From assembly GCA_016342345.1 (NCBI GenBank), contig JAEINO010000001.1, forward strand, positions 248,001-312,000: a stretch of 64,000 nucleotides of DNA. Direction: 5' to 3'. The position numbers and the translations under genes were made by a program. This DNA comes from Pseudodesulfovibrio sp. Its GTDB lineage: Bacteria > Desulfobacterota > Desulfovibrionia > Desulfovibrionales > Desulfovibrionaceae. The notes under the pieces were generated by a model. That model was not told the origin of the DNA, did not search any database, and saw nothing but the letters and a program-made list of their open reading frames with translations. Below are positions 19,503 through 24,157 of the stretch, one piece after another. Numbering within the stretch: the stretch's first letter is position 1; the number at the start of each line of letters is the position of its first letter.

Positions 19503-19531
19503 TAAAAACGGTCCTGATTTCATCAAGACCG
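19503..19531 (-). terminator. Terminator of the redox (siroheme) operon
   Basis: Read on the minus strand, a 10-bp stem with one G-U pair (CGGTCTTGAT/ATCAGGACCG) closes a 3-base GAA loop and is followed by TTTTTATT. It lies 39 bp after the last gene of the operon. Confidence 0.8.
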
Positions 19532-19569
19532 CTCATGTTTTTACCATGTATTTCAACGAGCCGACAATT

Positions 19570-20229
19570 CTACAGAATAGCTTCCTTGACCGCATCAATC
19601 CCGATTTTCTTCAGCATCTGGGCTGAACGGCTACGCTTCCCGGAATTATCACGATAGAATTCAAGAAACCTGTTCACCAATTCAATAGCTTCCTTGCGAG
19701 ACAACTCTTCAGCCAGGACATCACCGATCCGAGGTCTGCCAGAGGCATTACCACCGACAACCATGGTCCATCCTTTTCGCTTGCCGATAAGACCAACATC
19801 ACGAACATAACTCTCGGCGCAGCACATGGTACACCCGGATACTCCCACTTTCAACTTGGCCGGAAGCTCCTTTCCCACGAACATTTCCTCAAGCTCAAGA
19901 CCAAGCCCCAGAGAATCACGGACCCCAAGTTTGCAGACCGCAGTGCCAGGGCACGCCTGGACATAATGCACACACAAACCAACGGCAGGTCCGATATCCA
20001 TCTTTAAATCGTCCCAGACCTGATCCACCTGCTCTTTCTCCAATCCGACCAAGGCAATGCGCTGCCCTGACGTGATCTTCATCACAGGGATTTCATATTT
20101 TCTGCCAACACGAGCCAGAGCTTCAAGGACATCCGGTGTCACAAGCCCGACCGGAGTCCGGGGGACAATGGCATACGTTTTCTGGTCACGTTGAAGGATT
20201 GCTCCCTTCGGGATATCGTTCTCAGCCAT
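19570..20229 (-). CDS. Small siroheme/4Fe-4S sulfite reductase-like protein, copy 2
   Basis: A single-unit nitrite/sulfite reductase protein of 219 residues, the size of the assimilatory-type low-spin sulfite reductase (P590) of Desulfovibrio. The ferredoxin-like N-terminal domain carries TSGQRIALVGL. The cofactor cysteines are in ACPGTAVCKLG (CX5C) and GCTMCCAES, placed to bind a [4Fe-4S] cluster coupled to siroheme. It is the downstream of two tandem paralogs (18 bp apart) and the last gene of the operon. The reaction of this family in vivo is still debated: it reduces sulfite to sulfide in vitro. Confidence 0.85.
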   Translation of the reverse strand: MAENDIPKGAILQRDQKTYAIVPRTPVGLVTPDVLEALARVGRKYEIPVMKITSGQRIALVGLEKEQVDQVWDDLKMDIGPAVGLCVHYVQACPGTAVCKLGVRDSLGLGLELEEMFVGKELPAKLKVGVSGCTMCCAESYVRDVGLIGKRKGWTMVVGGNASGRPRIGDVLAEELSRKEAIELVNRFLEFYRDNSGKRSRSAQMLKKIGIDAVKEAIL

Positions 20230-20247
20230 GGTGCAAACTCCAATCTA

Positions 20248-20922
20248 TTATTTTTGCGCAGATCCGAAAACAGCCTTTTTGACTGCATCTATGCCAACTC
20301 GCTTGACAAAACGCGCTGTACGTTCTTTGATTTTTGCGTTTTCAGAATAAAAATCAAGGGCTTTGCTGATAATTTCAAAGACTTTTTCTTCCGAAACATC
20401 CTCGGCCAGAATATCAGCCTCGCGTACATGCTTGCCCGCATTGCCTCCAAAGGCAACAGTCCATCCATTTTTCTTACCTATCAACCCAACGTCGCGAACA
20501 AGACTCTCGGAACAACACATGGAACATCCGGCCACACCGGTTTTGAGTTTTGTCGGCAGACTGTATCCATTGAGAAAATCTTCGAGTTTTGCACCAAAAG
20601 CCATGGAATCCTGCATACCAAGACGACATGCCGTCGTTCCAGGACAAGCCTGCACATAATACTTGCAGGACTCCCCTACAGGACCAAGCTGATCAAGCAC
20701 AGCGCTGAGCGTATCTTTGGGAATCCCCTGAATCTTCAACCGCTGCCCTGCGGTGACCCGTACGCCGGACAAATTGAATTCCTGAACCACGGAATTGATA
20801 CTGTTCAACTGATCCGGCGTGATCTGCCCCAACGGCATGCGGGGGGTAATCGAATATACCCCACCGCCACGCTGAACAATGGCCCCTTTGGGCAACTCTT
20901 CAATTAACTTCGCATTATTCAT
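20248..20922 (-). CDS. Small siroheme/4Fe-4S sulfite reductase-like protein, copy 1
   Basis: A 224-residue paralog of the next gene, with the same fold. It has TAGQRLKIQGI in the N-terminal domain, ACPGTTACRLG and GCSMCCSES as cluster ligands, and RDVGLIGKKNGWTVAFGGNAG as the conserved C-terminal core. The two copies are clearly related yet well diverged, so the duplication is old and both cofactor sites are kept. It starts 3 bp after the cupin stop, so the cupin and both siroheme proteins are likely on one transcript with the ferredoxins upstream. Electron donors could be those ferredoxins; this is inference. Confidence 0.85.
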   Translation of the reverse strand: MNNAKLIEELPKGAIVQRGGGVYSITPRMPLGQITPDQLNSINSVVQEFNLSGVRVTAGQRLKIQGIPKDTLSAVLDQLGPVGESCKYYVQACPGTTACRLGMQDSMAFGAKLEDFLNGYSLPTKLKTGVAGCSMCCSESLVRDVGLIGKKNGWTVAFGGNAGKHVREADILAEDVSEEKVFEIISKALDFYSENAKIKERTARFVKRVGIDAVKKAVFGSAQK

Positions 20923-20925
20923 ATT

Positions 20926-21243
20926 TTAAATCGGGGGTGCTATAGTTACAAGTACACGCATATCCGTAATGGCCCTGACTCCATGAGGTTCACGGATCTC
21001 CGTGACCAGCACGTCACCTGTCTTTGCAGGCATGGTTGCGCCGTCCGCTGCCAAGAATTCACCCTCACCTTCAAGAATGGCAAGATTCAACTCTCCATCC
21101 AAATCATGGGAATGCACGGGAAGCTTCTGCCCGGCCTTGAAGTTGAAATTAATCACCTTCATGTGCTCAGACTCGTGAACCAGATAATTAGAAAAAGTCA
21201 AATCCTTGAAACCGTGTTCTTCAAACAATTCAGTCTTCTTCAT
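20926..21243 (-). CDS. Single-domain cupin protein
   Basis: A small cupin of 105 residues. Motif 1 reads GQKLPVHSHDLDGELNLAILEGEGEF, with two histidines and an acidic residue as metal ligands. Motif 2 reads KTGDVLVTEIREPHGVRA, supplying a further histidine. The fold suits a metal-binding sensor or enzyme but the ligand is unknown. Small cupins are often found beside Crp/Fnr regulators and ferredoxin genes in sulfate reducers. The ATG follows AAAAGGAGTCTGTCTC at workable spacing, and the stop is 3 bp before the first siroheme gene. Confidence 0.8.
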   Translation of the reverse strand: MKKTELFEEHGFKDLTFSNYLVHESEHMKVINFNFKAGQKLPVHSHDLDGELNLAILEGEGEFLAADGATMPAKTGDVLVTEIREPHGVRAITDMRVLVTIAPPI

Positions 21244-21261
21244 GAGACAGACTCCTTTTGG

Positions 21262-22035
21262 CTAGAACTCAAGAGGCACTGTTTCCAGAACTCCACCGCT
21301 CCGAGCCACAGTGACTCGAACGATATCAACCTTCTTGCCCGCACGTTTAACGGCTTCGGACAGAATAGTACTCATGGAAGAGCAGCACGGTACTTCCATT
21401 TCCATGATGGTAATGAATTTCAAATCATTCAGCTCTATGATCTCGGCAAGCTTTTCAATATATTCCATCTGGTTGTCGAACTTGGGGCATCCAAGCAGAA
21501 CAACCTTGCCGGGCACATATTCACTGTGATAGCCGGGCATGGCCACGGGCACACAGTCTGCGGTCAAAAGCAGATCAGCCCCTTTCAGAAAGGGAGCATT
21601 CGGCGGAACCAACCGCAACTGCACCGGCCAATGAGACAATGCGGAACCGCCTGTGGGTGAAGCCATCGGGATATTTGCCCTGTCGCACGGTGTCATGGTC
21701 TTCAACGCAGATCCCGGACAACCACCAACTGTTTTTTTGTTCAAACGCAAACTCTCGGGACTCGGCATGTGATCCGGAACCACTCGACCCTGGGCCTTCA
21801 GAGACTCCGCAACAGCCTCTGGATCGAAATCTTCAGCCTCACGCACAATCACCTTCAGCGCACCTGTTGGACAATCGCCCAGGCACGCACCCAAACCGTC
21901 ACAATATATATCCTTGACCAATCTGGCCTTGCCATCAACTATAGCAAGGGCTCCCTCTTCACATGAAGGAACACATTCCCCGCAACCATTGCACAACTCT
22001 TCATCAATACTGATCATTTTTCTGCTACCAATCAT
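21262..22035 (-). CDS. Two-cluster ferredoxin-like protein with C-terminal Cys domain
   Basis: A 257-residue protein. The N-terminal ferredoxin domain has CNGCGECVPSCEEGAL and CDGLGACLGDCPTGAL, suited to [4Fe-4S] clusters, the second with a five-rather than two-residue first gap (CX4C). The C-terminal 150 residues are less common and carry further cysteines in LLGCPKFDN and EVPCCSSM. Proteins of this plan occur near hcp and Crp-family (HcpR) genes in anaerobes. I start at ATG 22035 after GAGGGTACCATA; an upstream ATG at 22107 would run into the polyferredoxin gene. It lies 28 bp after that gene, within the redox operon. Confidence 0.78.
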   Translation of the reverse strand: MIGSRKMISIDEELCNGCGECVPSCEEGALAIVDGKARLVKDIYCDGLGACLGDCPTGALKVIVREAEDFDPEAVAESLKAQGRVVPDHMPSPESLRLNKKTVGGCPGSALKTMTPCDRANIPMASPTGGSALSHWPVQLRLVPPNAPFLKGADLLLTADCVPVAMPGYHSEYVPGKVVLLGCPKFDNQMEYIEKLAEIIELNDLKFITIMEMEVPCCSSMSTILSEAVKRAGKKVDIVRVTVARSGGVLETVPLEF

Positions 22036-22063
22036 TATGGTACCCTCTTTTTTCAATTGTATC

Positions 22064-23380
22064 TTATATTCTTGCCACACCAAGGAAAATGGCATGGAGA
22101 CTTGCAACTATGACAATAAACATTTTTCGCGCTGTATCGGAAGTCAAACCCGGAAAATGATATCCGATCTGTTTGTGAACGCAGGCGGAAACACAATCAC
22201 CACACAAAGTGCAGGAGAGAGCAGGCTTGCCCAGCATCACCCTACTCTCGTCCAACGCATTATATCGGCATCGACTGAAACAGGCACCGCATTGGGTGCA
22301 ATCTGTACCAATTCGAATACGCCAGGGAGAAATTTTGCCGAAGACATTGGCAACAAGCCCCATGGGACAAAAGGCTGTGCAATGGGTCATCATTCCAGCC
22401 TTGCGGGACACAAAAACCATGATACCAACTCCCACCAAACCGAAAACCCCAGCAAACAGGATGGCAGACACTCCAGGAACTCCCATGGAACGCAACAGCA
22501 GGGCTGTTCCAACAACCAGTATCATGGTTGTAACACGTCCAGTGATACTCAGACGCCTCAGGACTGCATTGGAGGCCGGACGTTTGCCCAGGCGACTCAT
22601 GGCATCATCCCATGCCCCAATATAGCACAGATGACTGCACCAGGCAGGACCAACCAGCAACACTGTGACAATAAACAAGATGAGCATGAAAAAGCCGTTA
22701 CCTCGAAAGACCGGACCAGCAACTATCAAGGCTGGAACCGGAAGGTGAAGCGTGCCTGTCATGAGCATGGATTCCATACCCAACAATCCCAAAACAAATT
22801 GAAGAAAAAAGACGACCGAAAAGAAACCCCATATGCGTGGACGATACGTGCGATGCCCTTTGGGTATCAGCATCATCCCTCCAACCCATTGGGCATAGAA
22901 ACCAAGTATGGAAATTTCAAGCCACCCCCAGCCCGGAAAATATCGATCAGCCAGCAAAATCGGAAACGGAACATTGAACCGAACCAGAGCAAGACCCAAA
23001 ATTGCCAGAAAAAAAATTGCAGCGCGTGGAATTGCCTGTTCGATGTTCTTATGAAAAAAATCGCGAGAAAACTTGCCAACCAGAACAAGCAATGCCAGAG
23101 CATTCAAACCGATAACACCTGTCATAATTGCGGCCAATCGGGTCCAGGGTAAATCGAAGGCTTGACGAAAACCAATAAAATCCACGGTGGCATCAGCCCA
23201 GATATAACCTCCCCATACAAGGGCGGCGACAGCAACCAGTCGCACCCATGCCTGACGAATAAACACAAGGCCTACCACAAAAATAAATGTCACAGCCAAA
23301 CCAAAATCATTGCTCCTGAGCGCGTGTGCACCCAAAAAAAACAATGCAAGAACAGGAATGACTAAAACAAACTTCTTCAT
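22064..23380 (-). CDS. Membrane polyferredoxin, NapH/NosR-like
   Basis: A membrane iron-sulfur protein of 438 residues with about ten hydrophobic helices. The family mark is the membrane-edge motif GPAWCSHLCYIGAWDD, with a second CX3C in THCTAFCPMG. The cytoplasmic C-terminal part has two ferredoxin motifs, CTQCGACFSRC and CTLCGDCVSAC. NapH/NosR/RnfB-like proteins of this kind pass electrons between the quinone pool and soluble ferredoxins. As the first gene of the operon it could feed the ferredoxin-like protein and the two siroheme proteins downstream. The start follows CACGGAGACAAGAAAA. A long open frame on the opposite strand is a shadow. Confidence 0.83.
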   Translation of the reverse strand: MKKFVLVIPVLALFFLGAHALRSNDFGLAVTFIFVVGLVFIRQAWVRLVAVAALVWGGYIWADATVDFIGFRQAFDLPWTRLAAIMTGVIGLNALALLVLVGKFSRDFFHKNIEQAIPRAAIFFLAILGLALVRFNVPFPILLADRYFPGWGWLEISILGFYAQWVGGMMLIPKGHRTYRPRIWGFFSVVFFLQFVLGLLGMESMLMTGTLHLPVPALIVAGPVFRGNGFFMLILFIVTVLLVGPAWCSHLCYIGAWDDAMSRLGKRPASNAVLRRLSITGRVTTMILVVGTALLLRSMGVPGVSAILFAGVFGLVGVGIMVFVSRKAGMMTHCTAFCPMGLVANVFGKISPWRIRIGTDCTQCGACFSRCRYNALDESRVMLGKPALSCTLCGDCVSACVHKQIGYHFPGLTSDTARKMFIVIVASLHAIFLGVARI

Positions 23381-23430
23381 TTTTCTTGTCTCCGTGATTC
23401 ACACATTGAACATTTTTTTTGACGAGAGCC

Positions 23431-23444
23431 ATGACTTAGGTCAA
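23431..23444. promoter_or_regulatory. FNR-like palindrome between polyferredoxin operon and crp gene
   Basis: ATGAC-TTAG-GTCAA keeps the TTGAY-N4-RTCAA layout of Fnr-family operators with one mismatch. It is centred between the two divergent genes, 39 bp upstream of the regulator ATG and 51 bp upstream of the polyferredoxin ATG. On the regulator side it overlaps the likely -35 region, with TATAAC at 23453-23458 as -10. Confidence 0.5.
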
Positions 23445-23482
23445 TTTATCAATATAACAATGCAAATGGAGTACATTTTTAC

Positions 23483-24157
23483 ATGGATAAACTTGCAGCA
23501 GTAAAATCCGTCATGTTTTTTGATGGGTTGCCTGAAGAAAAATTCAACAAACTTCCCGACATCTCTATCGTCAAAAAATACAGAAAGGGCGAAACCCTTT
23601 TTGTTGCCGACGTCCTTGCCAACGGCTTCTTTGCTCCAATCAAGGGAAGAGTGAAGATTTTCAGAACATCCCCGTCAGGCAAGGAACAAATACTCCACGT
23701 CTTCGGTCCGGGCGAAGCCTTTGGAGAAGTACCTGTATTCGAAGGCGGAACCTTCCCTGCCAATGGACAGGCCATTGAACCATGCGAAGCCCTTTTCTTT
23801 CCTCGCCGCGACTTTAAAAACATGATCAAGGAAGATCCTGACCTGGCTATGAAAATGATGGCCATGCTCTCTCAGAAGCTCAGGATTCTGGTCAACAAGA
23901 TTGATGACTTGAGTCTCAAGGAAACTCCAGCTCGTGTGGCATCCTATCTTCTGCTGCTCCGTTCCTCACAGGATTCCGACACCTTCAAACTTGACCTGCC
24001 AAAAGGTCAAATCGCCTTTTATCTCGGCACGATTCAGGAGACTCTGTCACGCATATTCAAACGATTTACCGAACAAGGCATTATTGCACTCAACGGCAAT
24101 GAAATTACCATACTCGACATGGATCAACTCAAAGACATCGCAGACGAAGGCCGCTAA
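23483..24157 (+). CDS. Crp/Fnr family transcriptional regulator
   Basis: A DNA-binding regulator of 224 residues. The cNMP-like beta-barrel sensor (about 10-115) includes GPGEAFGEVPVFEGG, followed by the long dimer helix and a winged helix with LPKGQIAFYLGTIQETLSRIF. The recognition helix has E-x2-SR (ETLSR), the residues that in this family read TGA half-sites. No N-terminal cysteine cluster for an Fnr [4Fe-4S] sensor is present, so the signal may be haem/NO, a small molecule or something else. It is transcribed away from the redox operon, and the palindrome at 23431-23444 suggests control of both and of itself. HcpR is one possible identity. Confidence 0.85.
   Translation: MDKLAAVKSVMFFDGLPEEKFNKLPDISIVKKYRKGETLFVADVLANGFFAPIKGRVKIFRTSPSGKEQILHVFGPGEAFGEVPVFEGGTFPANGQAIEPCEALFFPRRDFKNMIKEDPDLAMKMMAMLSQKLRILVNKIDDLSLKETPARVASYLLLLRSSQDSDTFKLDLPKGQIAFYLGTIQETLSRIFKRFTEQGIIALNGNEITILDMDQLKDIADEGR

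Follow-up and report, generated by a model that had tools for sequence, protein, structure and literature searches.

A candidate HcpR-type operon joining a membrane polyferredoxin to small siroheme proteins in Pseudodesulfovibrio

The closest described counterpart of the locus reported here is the HcpR regulon of Desulfovibrio and further deltaproteobacteria, in which a Crp/Fnr regulator is described as targeting hcp and frdX (Rodionov 2004, 2005; PMC545781, PMC1274295). For Desulfovibrio, a pair given as 'putative sulfite/nitrite reductase, polyferredoxin' was already listed among its targets in 2004 (PMC545781), and an FNR-like motif, wyTTGACnnnnGTCAArw, is described for regulators in which the R180 of CRP is replaced (PMC1274295). 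We compare with this regulon a locus at positions 19,570 to 24,157 of a 64,000-nucleotide stretch of a Pseudodesulfovibrio sp. genome (GCA_016342345.1, contig JAEINO010000001.1, positions 248,001 to 312,000; hereafter the window). It contains genes for a Crp/Fnr regulator (Reg), a membrane polyferredoxin (PF), a FrdX-like ferredoxin (Frd in gene maps), a cupin and two small siroheme proteins (SirA and SirB; Sir). The regulator family, the hcp and frdX targets, the Sir-polyferredoxin pair and the FNR-like motif are common to both. In contrast to the described regulon, Reg, PF, FrdX, the cupin and one or two Sir proteins here share one locus with hcp unlinked, and the small Sir proteins lack the ferredoxin insert found in the Sir beside PF in Desulfovibrio sp. 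A2.

Two further systems resemble parts of the locus. The frdX-hcp-hcpR locus of Clostridioides difficile encodes a FrdX-type iron-sulfur protein and Hcp under HcpR and is induced by nitric oxide (NO), but the main text of that study does not mention a polyferredoxin, a sulfite reductase or a cupin (PMC12915319). FrdX is reported there to be induced ~150- to 220-fold by NO, with a knockdown that is NO-sensitive, and the 2026 study calls its exact function unclear. Small siroheme proteins with PF03460 and PF01077 domains and one siroheme-[4Fe-4S] site are, by description, represented by DVU_1597 (PMC3448663), for which the accessible text names no physiological donor, and by DEACI_1836 of A. 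acetoxydans, a two-domain relative beside a ferredoxin gene that is reported to be up-regulated with nitrate (PMC10949509). They differ from the present arrangement, in which two tandem copies share an operon with a membrane polyferredoxin and FrdX.

From sequence comparison we favour, with some reserve, the view that the locus serves N-oxide (NO/nitrite) defence as an operon controlled by an HcpR-type regulator. The original prediction had located the six genes and assigned their families correctly (Table 1), and its proposal that the five minus-strand genes form a single operon is backed by their spacing, the intergenic gaps being 18, 3, 18 and 28 nucleotides (nt; FrdX start at 22035). Between the divergent Reg and PF genes lies a gap of 102 nt, which contains the palindrome TGACTTAGGTCA.

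The regulator appears to be of the HcpR type (HcpR1/DNR branch), as judged by its domains, cysteines, helix, motif and gene context. Domain search recovered a cyclic nucleotide monophosphate (cNMP)-binding domain and a Crp helix-turn-helix. With one Cys in 224 residues the protein has no FNR-type Fe-S site, and absence of an FNR-type Cys cluster is given as an HcpR criterion (PMC1274295). The helix GTIQETLSR was found in 31 of 32 loci of the genus (one was unreadable) and its variant GT[IS][PQS]ETLSR in all 18 outgroup Reg loci. The position of CRP R180, placed by eye against CRP, is not Arg, and the accompanying site is of the TTGACnnnnGTCAA type; this FNR-like motif has been tied to HcpR proteins without the CRP-type Arg (Rodionov 2005, PMC1274295). 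P. aeruginosa DNR (3dkw) was the third-best PDB match. Searching the genome with Reg returned two other, weak matches. One is a CooA-like gene adjacent to cooS, the other encodes a long cNMP-binding protein; Crp/Fnr proteins of greater divergence could escape this search. Reg adjoins the FrdX-containing operon in the window and does not adjoin hcp in that genome.

An Fnr-like palindrome common to Reg and PF, part of the original prediction, is present in the window and, as TGA[CT]N4[AG]TCA, in 33 of 33 Reg-PF gaps of the genus including the window; 26 of these carry the strict form TGACN4GTCA. Across 32 aligned rows (L067 and L101 were left out here and in the -10 hexamer analysis) mean conservation was 0.96 in the palindrome versus 0.66 in the rest of the gap. 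In genome G019 (L067) the palindrome lies ~1.1 kb from Reg yet still adjoins PF.

The same motif marks hcp, which sits on a separate contig from the operon in the window genome and is unlinked to it in the genus. In all 29 genus loci scanned, that of the window genome among them, it occurs ~77-101 nt upstream of the hcp start, with the strict form in 23 (30 matches were fetched, and L171 was excluded since its start was not recognised). In the 884 kb of loci fetched, its background frequency is 0.07 per kb for the strict and 0.17 per kb for the loose form. The exact core ATGACTTNNGTCAA has three copies in the 4.15 Mb genome, one at the operon, one at hcp and one within a called open reading frame (ORF). 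This third copy (C10:24367) was rejected as a target, as it lies within an ORF from a simple caller and not upstream of an obvious gene. Allowing one mismatch gave 33 genome sites versus 20 for the reversed pattern, and inspection of the context at 30 loci, 5 of them more closely, revealed no other convincing target. For TGACN4GTCA alone the count is 107, versus 63 for the reversed pattern. A second candidate hcp, matched by the Prismane family on contig C68 (L140), was discarded, its sequence being read by eye as cooS with cooC after it and a CooA-like regulator. The link to HcpR-type control is thus stronger than first noted, because the same motif stands at hcp and Reg homologues lie near hcp in three loci of other genomes (L106, L217 and L230).

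The position of the palindrome relative to a possible promoter is consistent with activation. Among the offsets tried, a distance of 32 nt between the palindrome centre and a TATAAT-like hexamer ranks first in the PF set, with a mean of 2.97/6 against an overall mean of 1.65, and second in the hcp set (3.00/6) after 30 nt (3.03), all of these values serving for ranking only. We take a 32-nt spacing to be that of a class II activator.

In the mechanism that we propose, Reg would bind the palindrome and activate both the operon and the distant hcp, as predicted from the sites, their conservation and their spacing, with NO or nitrite as the probable trigger. The polyferredoxin would draw electrons, probably from menaquinol, and pass them at the cytoplasmic face to FrdX. 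From there they would reach SirA, and SirB where it is present, which would reduce nitrite, and perhaps also hydroxylamine, to ammonium; FrdX may also supply Hcp, which reduces NO, and the cupin would be accessory. Where a genome lacks a typical periplasmic NrfA, such a route would clear nitrite and NO from the cytoplasm. Electron transfer from menaquinol to nitrite or NO is downhill.

The properties of the polyferredoxin agree with its proposed place in this chain. Its 12 invariant Cys, arranged as two CX3C pairs and two 4-Cys clusters, were conserved first in 14/14 and then in 48/48 aligned homologues. The structure model contains ~11 membrane helices, and, judged by loop charges, its N-terminus and every Fe-S motif face the cytoplasm in 48/48 homologues. 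NapH has the same layout of two CX3C pairs and two [4Fe-4S] motifs, and the likeness to NapH/MauN membrane ferredoxins extends to being a membrane protein. However, PF matches the NapH family (TIGR02163) only partially and below its cut-off (45.9 versus 213 bits), and it has no nap genes as neighbours in the window. A fold search with PF gave no match above noise.

FrdX combines a 7-Cys ferredoxin domain of the 2[4Fe-4S] type, whose N-terminus matches ferredoxins in a structure search, with a Cys-rich C-terminal domain. The canonical second Cys is missing from its second cluster motif (CDGLGAC) in 47/47 sequences. In the C-terminal part C161, C183, C217 and C218 are kept in 47/47 and C106 in 46/47. 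The C-terminus had been called unusual: it is indeed Cys-rich, but it is conserved in a family of 47 sequences and so is not a one-off. A weak beta-carbonic-anhydrase-like match to this part (Z 7.0, 101 residues, root mean square deviation 3.3) was discarded because the score falls in the noise range of the tool. The name FrdX is taken from context, as the gene is linked to hcp or Reg homologues in the window operon and in outgroup loci. As for the cupin, the gene of a cupin-fold protein beside hcp in D. desulfuricans 27774 is described as NO-induced (PMC5701242).

Recurrence of the partners outside the genus is a stronger test of a functional association than gene order within it. Seven of 80 named PF loci were dropped from the cross-genus counts as repeats of genus genomes, leaving 73, some of which duplicate order-level genomes also in the set. 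Near these, a Reg homologue was found in 14, a siroheme-family protein in 11, FrdX in 10 (one partial) and Hcp in 5, and 27 loci have at least one partner. When genes up to 4.5 kb from PF were clustered separately, Reg appeared in 13 loci, Sir in 11, FrdX in 8, a cupin in 7 and Hcp in 5. Genes for Hcp, FrdX, PF, a Reg homologue and a siroheme-family protein come together in one locus in other families of the order. Among the loci outside the genus, L230 (Desulfovibrio sp.) reads Reg / Sir-PF-Hcp-Frd, L217 Reg / Sir-PF..Hcp and L106, in map order, Hcp-PF-Sir / Reg / Frd. Further combined loci are L206, L104 and L272 (Desulfofustis). Loci that unite Reg, PF, Sir and Hcp (L106, L217, L230) are confined to Desulfovibrionales and other phyla carry subsets only, including Reg, Frd, cupin and PF in one locus in three Zixibacteria records and one Ignavibacterium record.

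FNR-like palindromes accompany these genes as well. Of 18 outgroup loci, 11 have one upstream of Reg; outside the genus they also lie upstream of Sir-PF in 8 of the 9 loci scanned and of hcp in 4 of 4. The Sir-PF scan covered 9 of the 13 loci in which a Sir with a ferredoxin insert adjoins PF (L099, L106, L202 and L243 were excluded; L220 and L239 are near relatives), and the hcp scan covered 4 of the 7 hcp genes near PF (L104, L262 and L272 were excluded). In Desulfovibrio sp. A2 (L220), where an insert-type Sir stands beside PF, the site reads TGTGACCTGCGTCAC, close to the sites described for the sulfite/nitrite reductase-polyferredoxin pair (Rodionov 2004, PMC545781). The described pair and this Sir-PF operon are probably one and the same, the D. 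vulgaris genes being judged by description.

These arrangements bear on an account in which the electron route mainly serves Hcp for NO reduction, and SirA and SirB are NO/nitrite scavengers or minor side enzymes. FrdX, at times with the cupin, does group with hcp in several outgroup loci, and a Myxococcota record (L262) reads Hcp-Frd-PF with no Sir detected. Yet hcp is unlinked in the genus and SirA belongs to every observable operon, and the 11 of 73 outside loci in which PF adjoins a siroheme-family protein likewise speak against it. We consider this account rather unlikely, although it is the likeliest of the rivals to N-oxide defence by the full chain.

SirA and SirB consist of PF03460 and PF01077 domains only, with a CX5C...CX3C cluster. 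They scored 181.8 and 167.8 bits against NirB (TIGR02374; cut-off 578), matching its C-terminal siroheme part only. Searching the genome with PF01077 gave four matches, namely SirA, SirB and two strong NIR_SIR matches on contig C129, in our reading DsrA and DsrB. In SirB the four cluster Cys are retained in 19/19 sequences, together with R24, K51, R57, K125 and K127. SirA is more variable; it keeps the cluster Cys in 32/32, and the basic residues are kept in the SirA of the window. The idea of a two-Sir set stood in part: SirA occurs in 31 of 31 genus loci where it is observable, but SirB is optional, being present in 19 of 31 and missing from the locus in 12 (L067 of G019 is truncated before SirA). 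A search of a plasmid collection returned 338 records, all below 60% identity; among the matches listed they were nirB-like or unannotated.

SirB could also be a small assimilatory-type sulfite reductase and the operon a system for sulfite assimilation or detoxification. The nearest relatives of SirB are Sir proteins encoded away from PF in other genera of the family (54-65% identity, 10 fetched loci), and DVU_1597, for which a small monomeric sulfite reductase of assimilatory type is described (PMC3448663), is by description of the SirB kind. The motif of the regulator, on the other hand, points to hcp, SirB is absent from 12 of 31 loci as noted above, and the genome has sulfide-making DsrAB-type proteins if our reading of the C129 pair is right. 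Transfer from menaquinol to sulfite is, moreover, thermodynamically poor. We regard a sulfite system as improbable.

Outside the genus the siroheme partner changes. Insert-type Sir proteins adjoin PF in the 13 outgroup loci mentioned above, the small type is also found in L100, L102 and L120, and in L243 an insert-type Sir and a SirB-type protein stand on either side of PF and Frd. The insert-type protein (~215 residues, with a 2[4Fe-4S] insert) is exemplified by L106:8263-8910 (-) and is also near PF in L206, L217, L220, L230, L242 and L279. In the L106 protein, the only one scanned, no PF03460 half-domain was reported, and the insert type may be a distinct reduced type of siroheme protein.

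Conservation within the genus is high. A strong PF match was found in 33 of 36 genomes, the window genome included; two of the three without are 81-82% complete and the third (G020) is 100% complete. Reg, PF, Frd and the cupin are present in the same order in 32 of 32 fetched loci. Conservation of the gene order, which the original prediction had made its test, holds inside the genus. Outside it the order changes, but some of the loci still bring the genes together. Within the genus, gene order is itself weak evidence because glyS (30/32), rpsT (30/32) and trkA (26/32) also keep their places. That the genes stay together through frozen genus synteny only, with no joint function, would fit the fixed places of glyS, rpsT and trkA around the operon but is very improbable given that other families and phyla show the partners again, in different arrangements and with a motif of the same type.

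Returning to N-oxide defence, the distribution of NrfA is suggestive. By family search a strong NrfA match is present in 6 of the 36 genus genomes and absent from the window genome and the other 29, and for these 30 relatives the locus suggests a route to nitrite tolerance. Presence of NrfA and loss of SirB show no clean relation across the genus. A wider proposal, which we put forward only tentatively and hold to be possible rather than probable, is that a quinol-linked cytoplasmic ammonifying chain for nitrite/NO detoxification (PF, FrdX, small siroheme reductases and Hcp, under an HcpR-type activator) replaces periplasmic NrfA in many sulfate reducers and recurs across phyla with changed siroheme partners. 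Nitrate or nitrite is used against souring, where nitrite tolerance is relevant.

Several observations weigh against N-oxide defence or against parts of the proposed chain. At the thresholds used, 46 of the 73 named outside PF loci show no partner, and 7 of 18 outgroup Reg genes lack a palindrome within 300 nt. Operon and hcp can occur apart: G031 (99% complete) carries the operon and has no true hcp match, and G020 carries hcp and no PF operon. At the predicted -10 place the hexamer of the window itself matches 2/6 bases, and a sigma-70 scan of the window found no sigma-70-like promoter match just upstream of PF. Of 32 genomes, 9 have a SirA without the R24 equivalent and 7 have one without the R57 equivalent. 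The NrfA search, finally, puts 12 of 36 genomes over the cut-off, including the window genome with a weak partial match. This sole match is a 429-residue cytochrome (G000:C18, L285:1889-3178 (-)) with 8 CxxCH motifs, and for that reason a different periplasmic nitrite-reducing cytochrome is possible in the window genome.

The set had been thought undescribed as a system. The individual parts, and HcpR control of the sulfite/nitrite reductase-polyferredoxin pair (2004, PMC545781), are already in print. A literature search, which covered few of the subscription journals, found no recognisable account of the whole set, nor of its six-gene form, the motif that it has in common with unlinked hcp across the genus, the change of siroheme partner or the recurrence across phyla. 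The locus proposes donor, carrier, acceptors and regulator together, in a form that is testable in one organism.

Table 1. Features of the polyferredoxin-siroheme locus, in window coordinates.
Feature	Position	Strand	Remark
Reg: Crp/Fnr regulator, 224 aa, HcpR/DNR-like	23483..24157	+	divergent from operon
FNR/HcpR-like palindrome TGACTTAGGTCA, candidate shared operator	23432..23443	.	Reg-PF gap
PF: NapH-like membrane polyferredoxin, 438 aa	22064..23380	-	domain and Cys pattern
FrdX-like ferredoxin, 257 aa	21262..22035	-	name taken from gene context
Small Cupin_2 protein, 105 aa	20926..21243	-	domain match
SirA: small siroheme/[4Fe-4S] protein, 224 aa, core member	20248..20922	-	PF03460 + PF01077
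SirB: small siroheme/[4Fe-4S] protein, 219 aa	19570..20229	-	PF03460 + PF01077
13-pair terminator-like hairpin, after SirB, before trkA	19506..19534	-	

The hairpin after SirB has the longest stem among 8 matches in the window; their number by itself is not significant, since shuffles give 5.8 (standard deviation 2.0).

Other genes were seen near PF in individual loci. PF lies directly downstream of Rrf2-family regulators (L234:7558-7977, L235:4136-4597) in a Thermoleophilia and a deltaproteobacterial metagenome-assembled genome. Multihaem cytochromes (PF13447) are near PF at L224:1627-2802 and L235:2724-4070, and DUF438-hemerythrin-PAS proteins in some loci. As in the window, trkH/trkA lie less than 4 kb from PF in a different family (L103:9250-12199), through either chance or old synteny.

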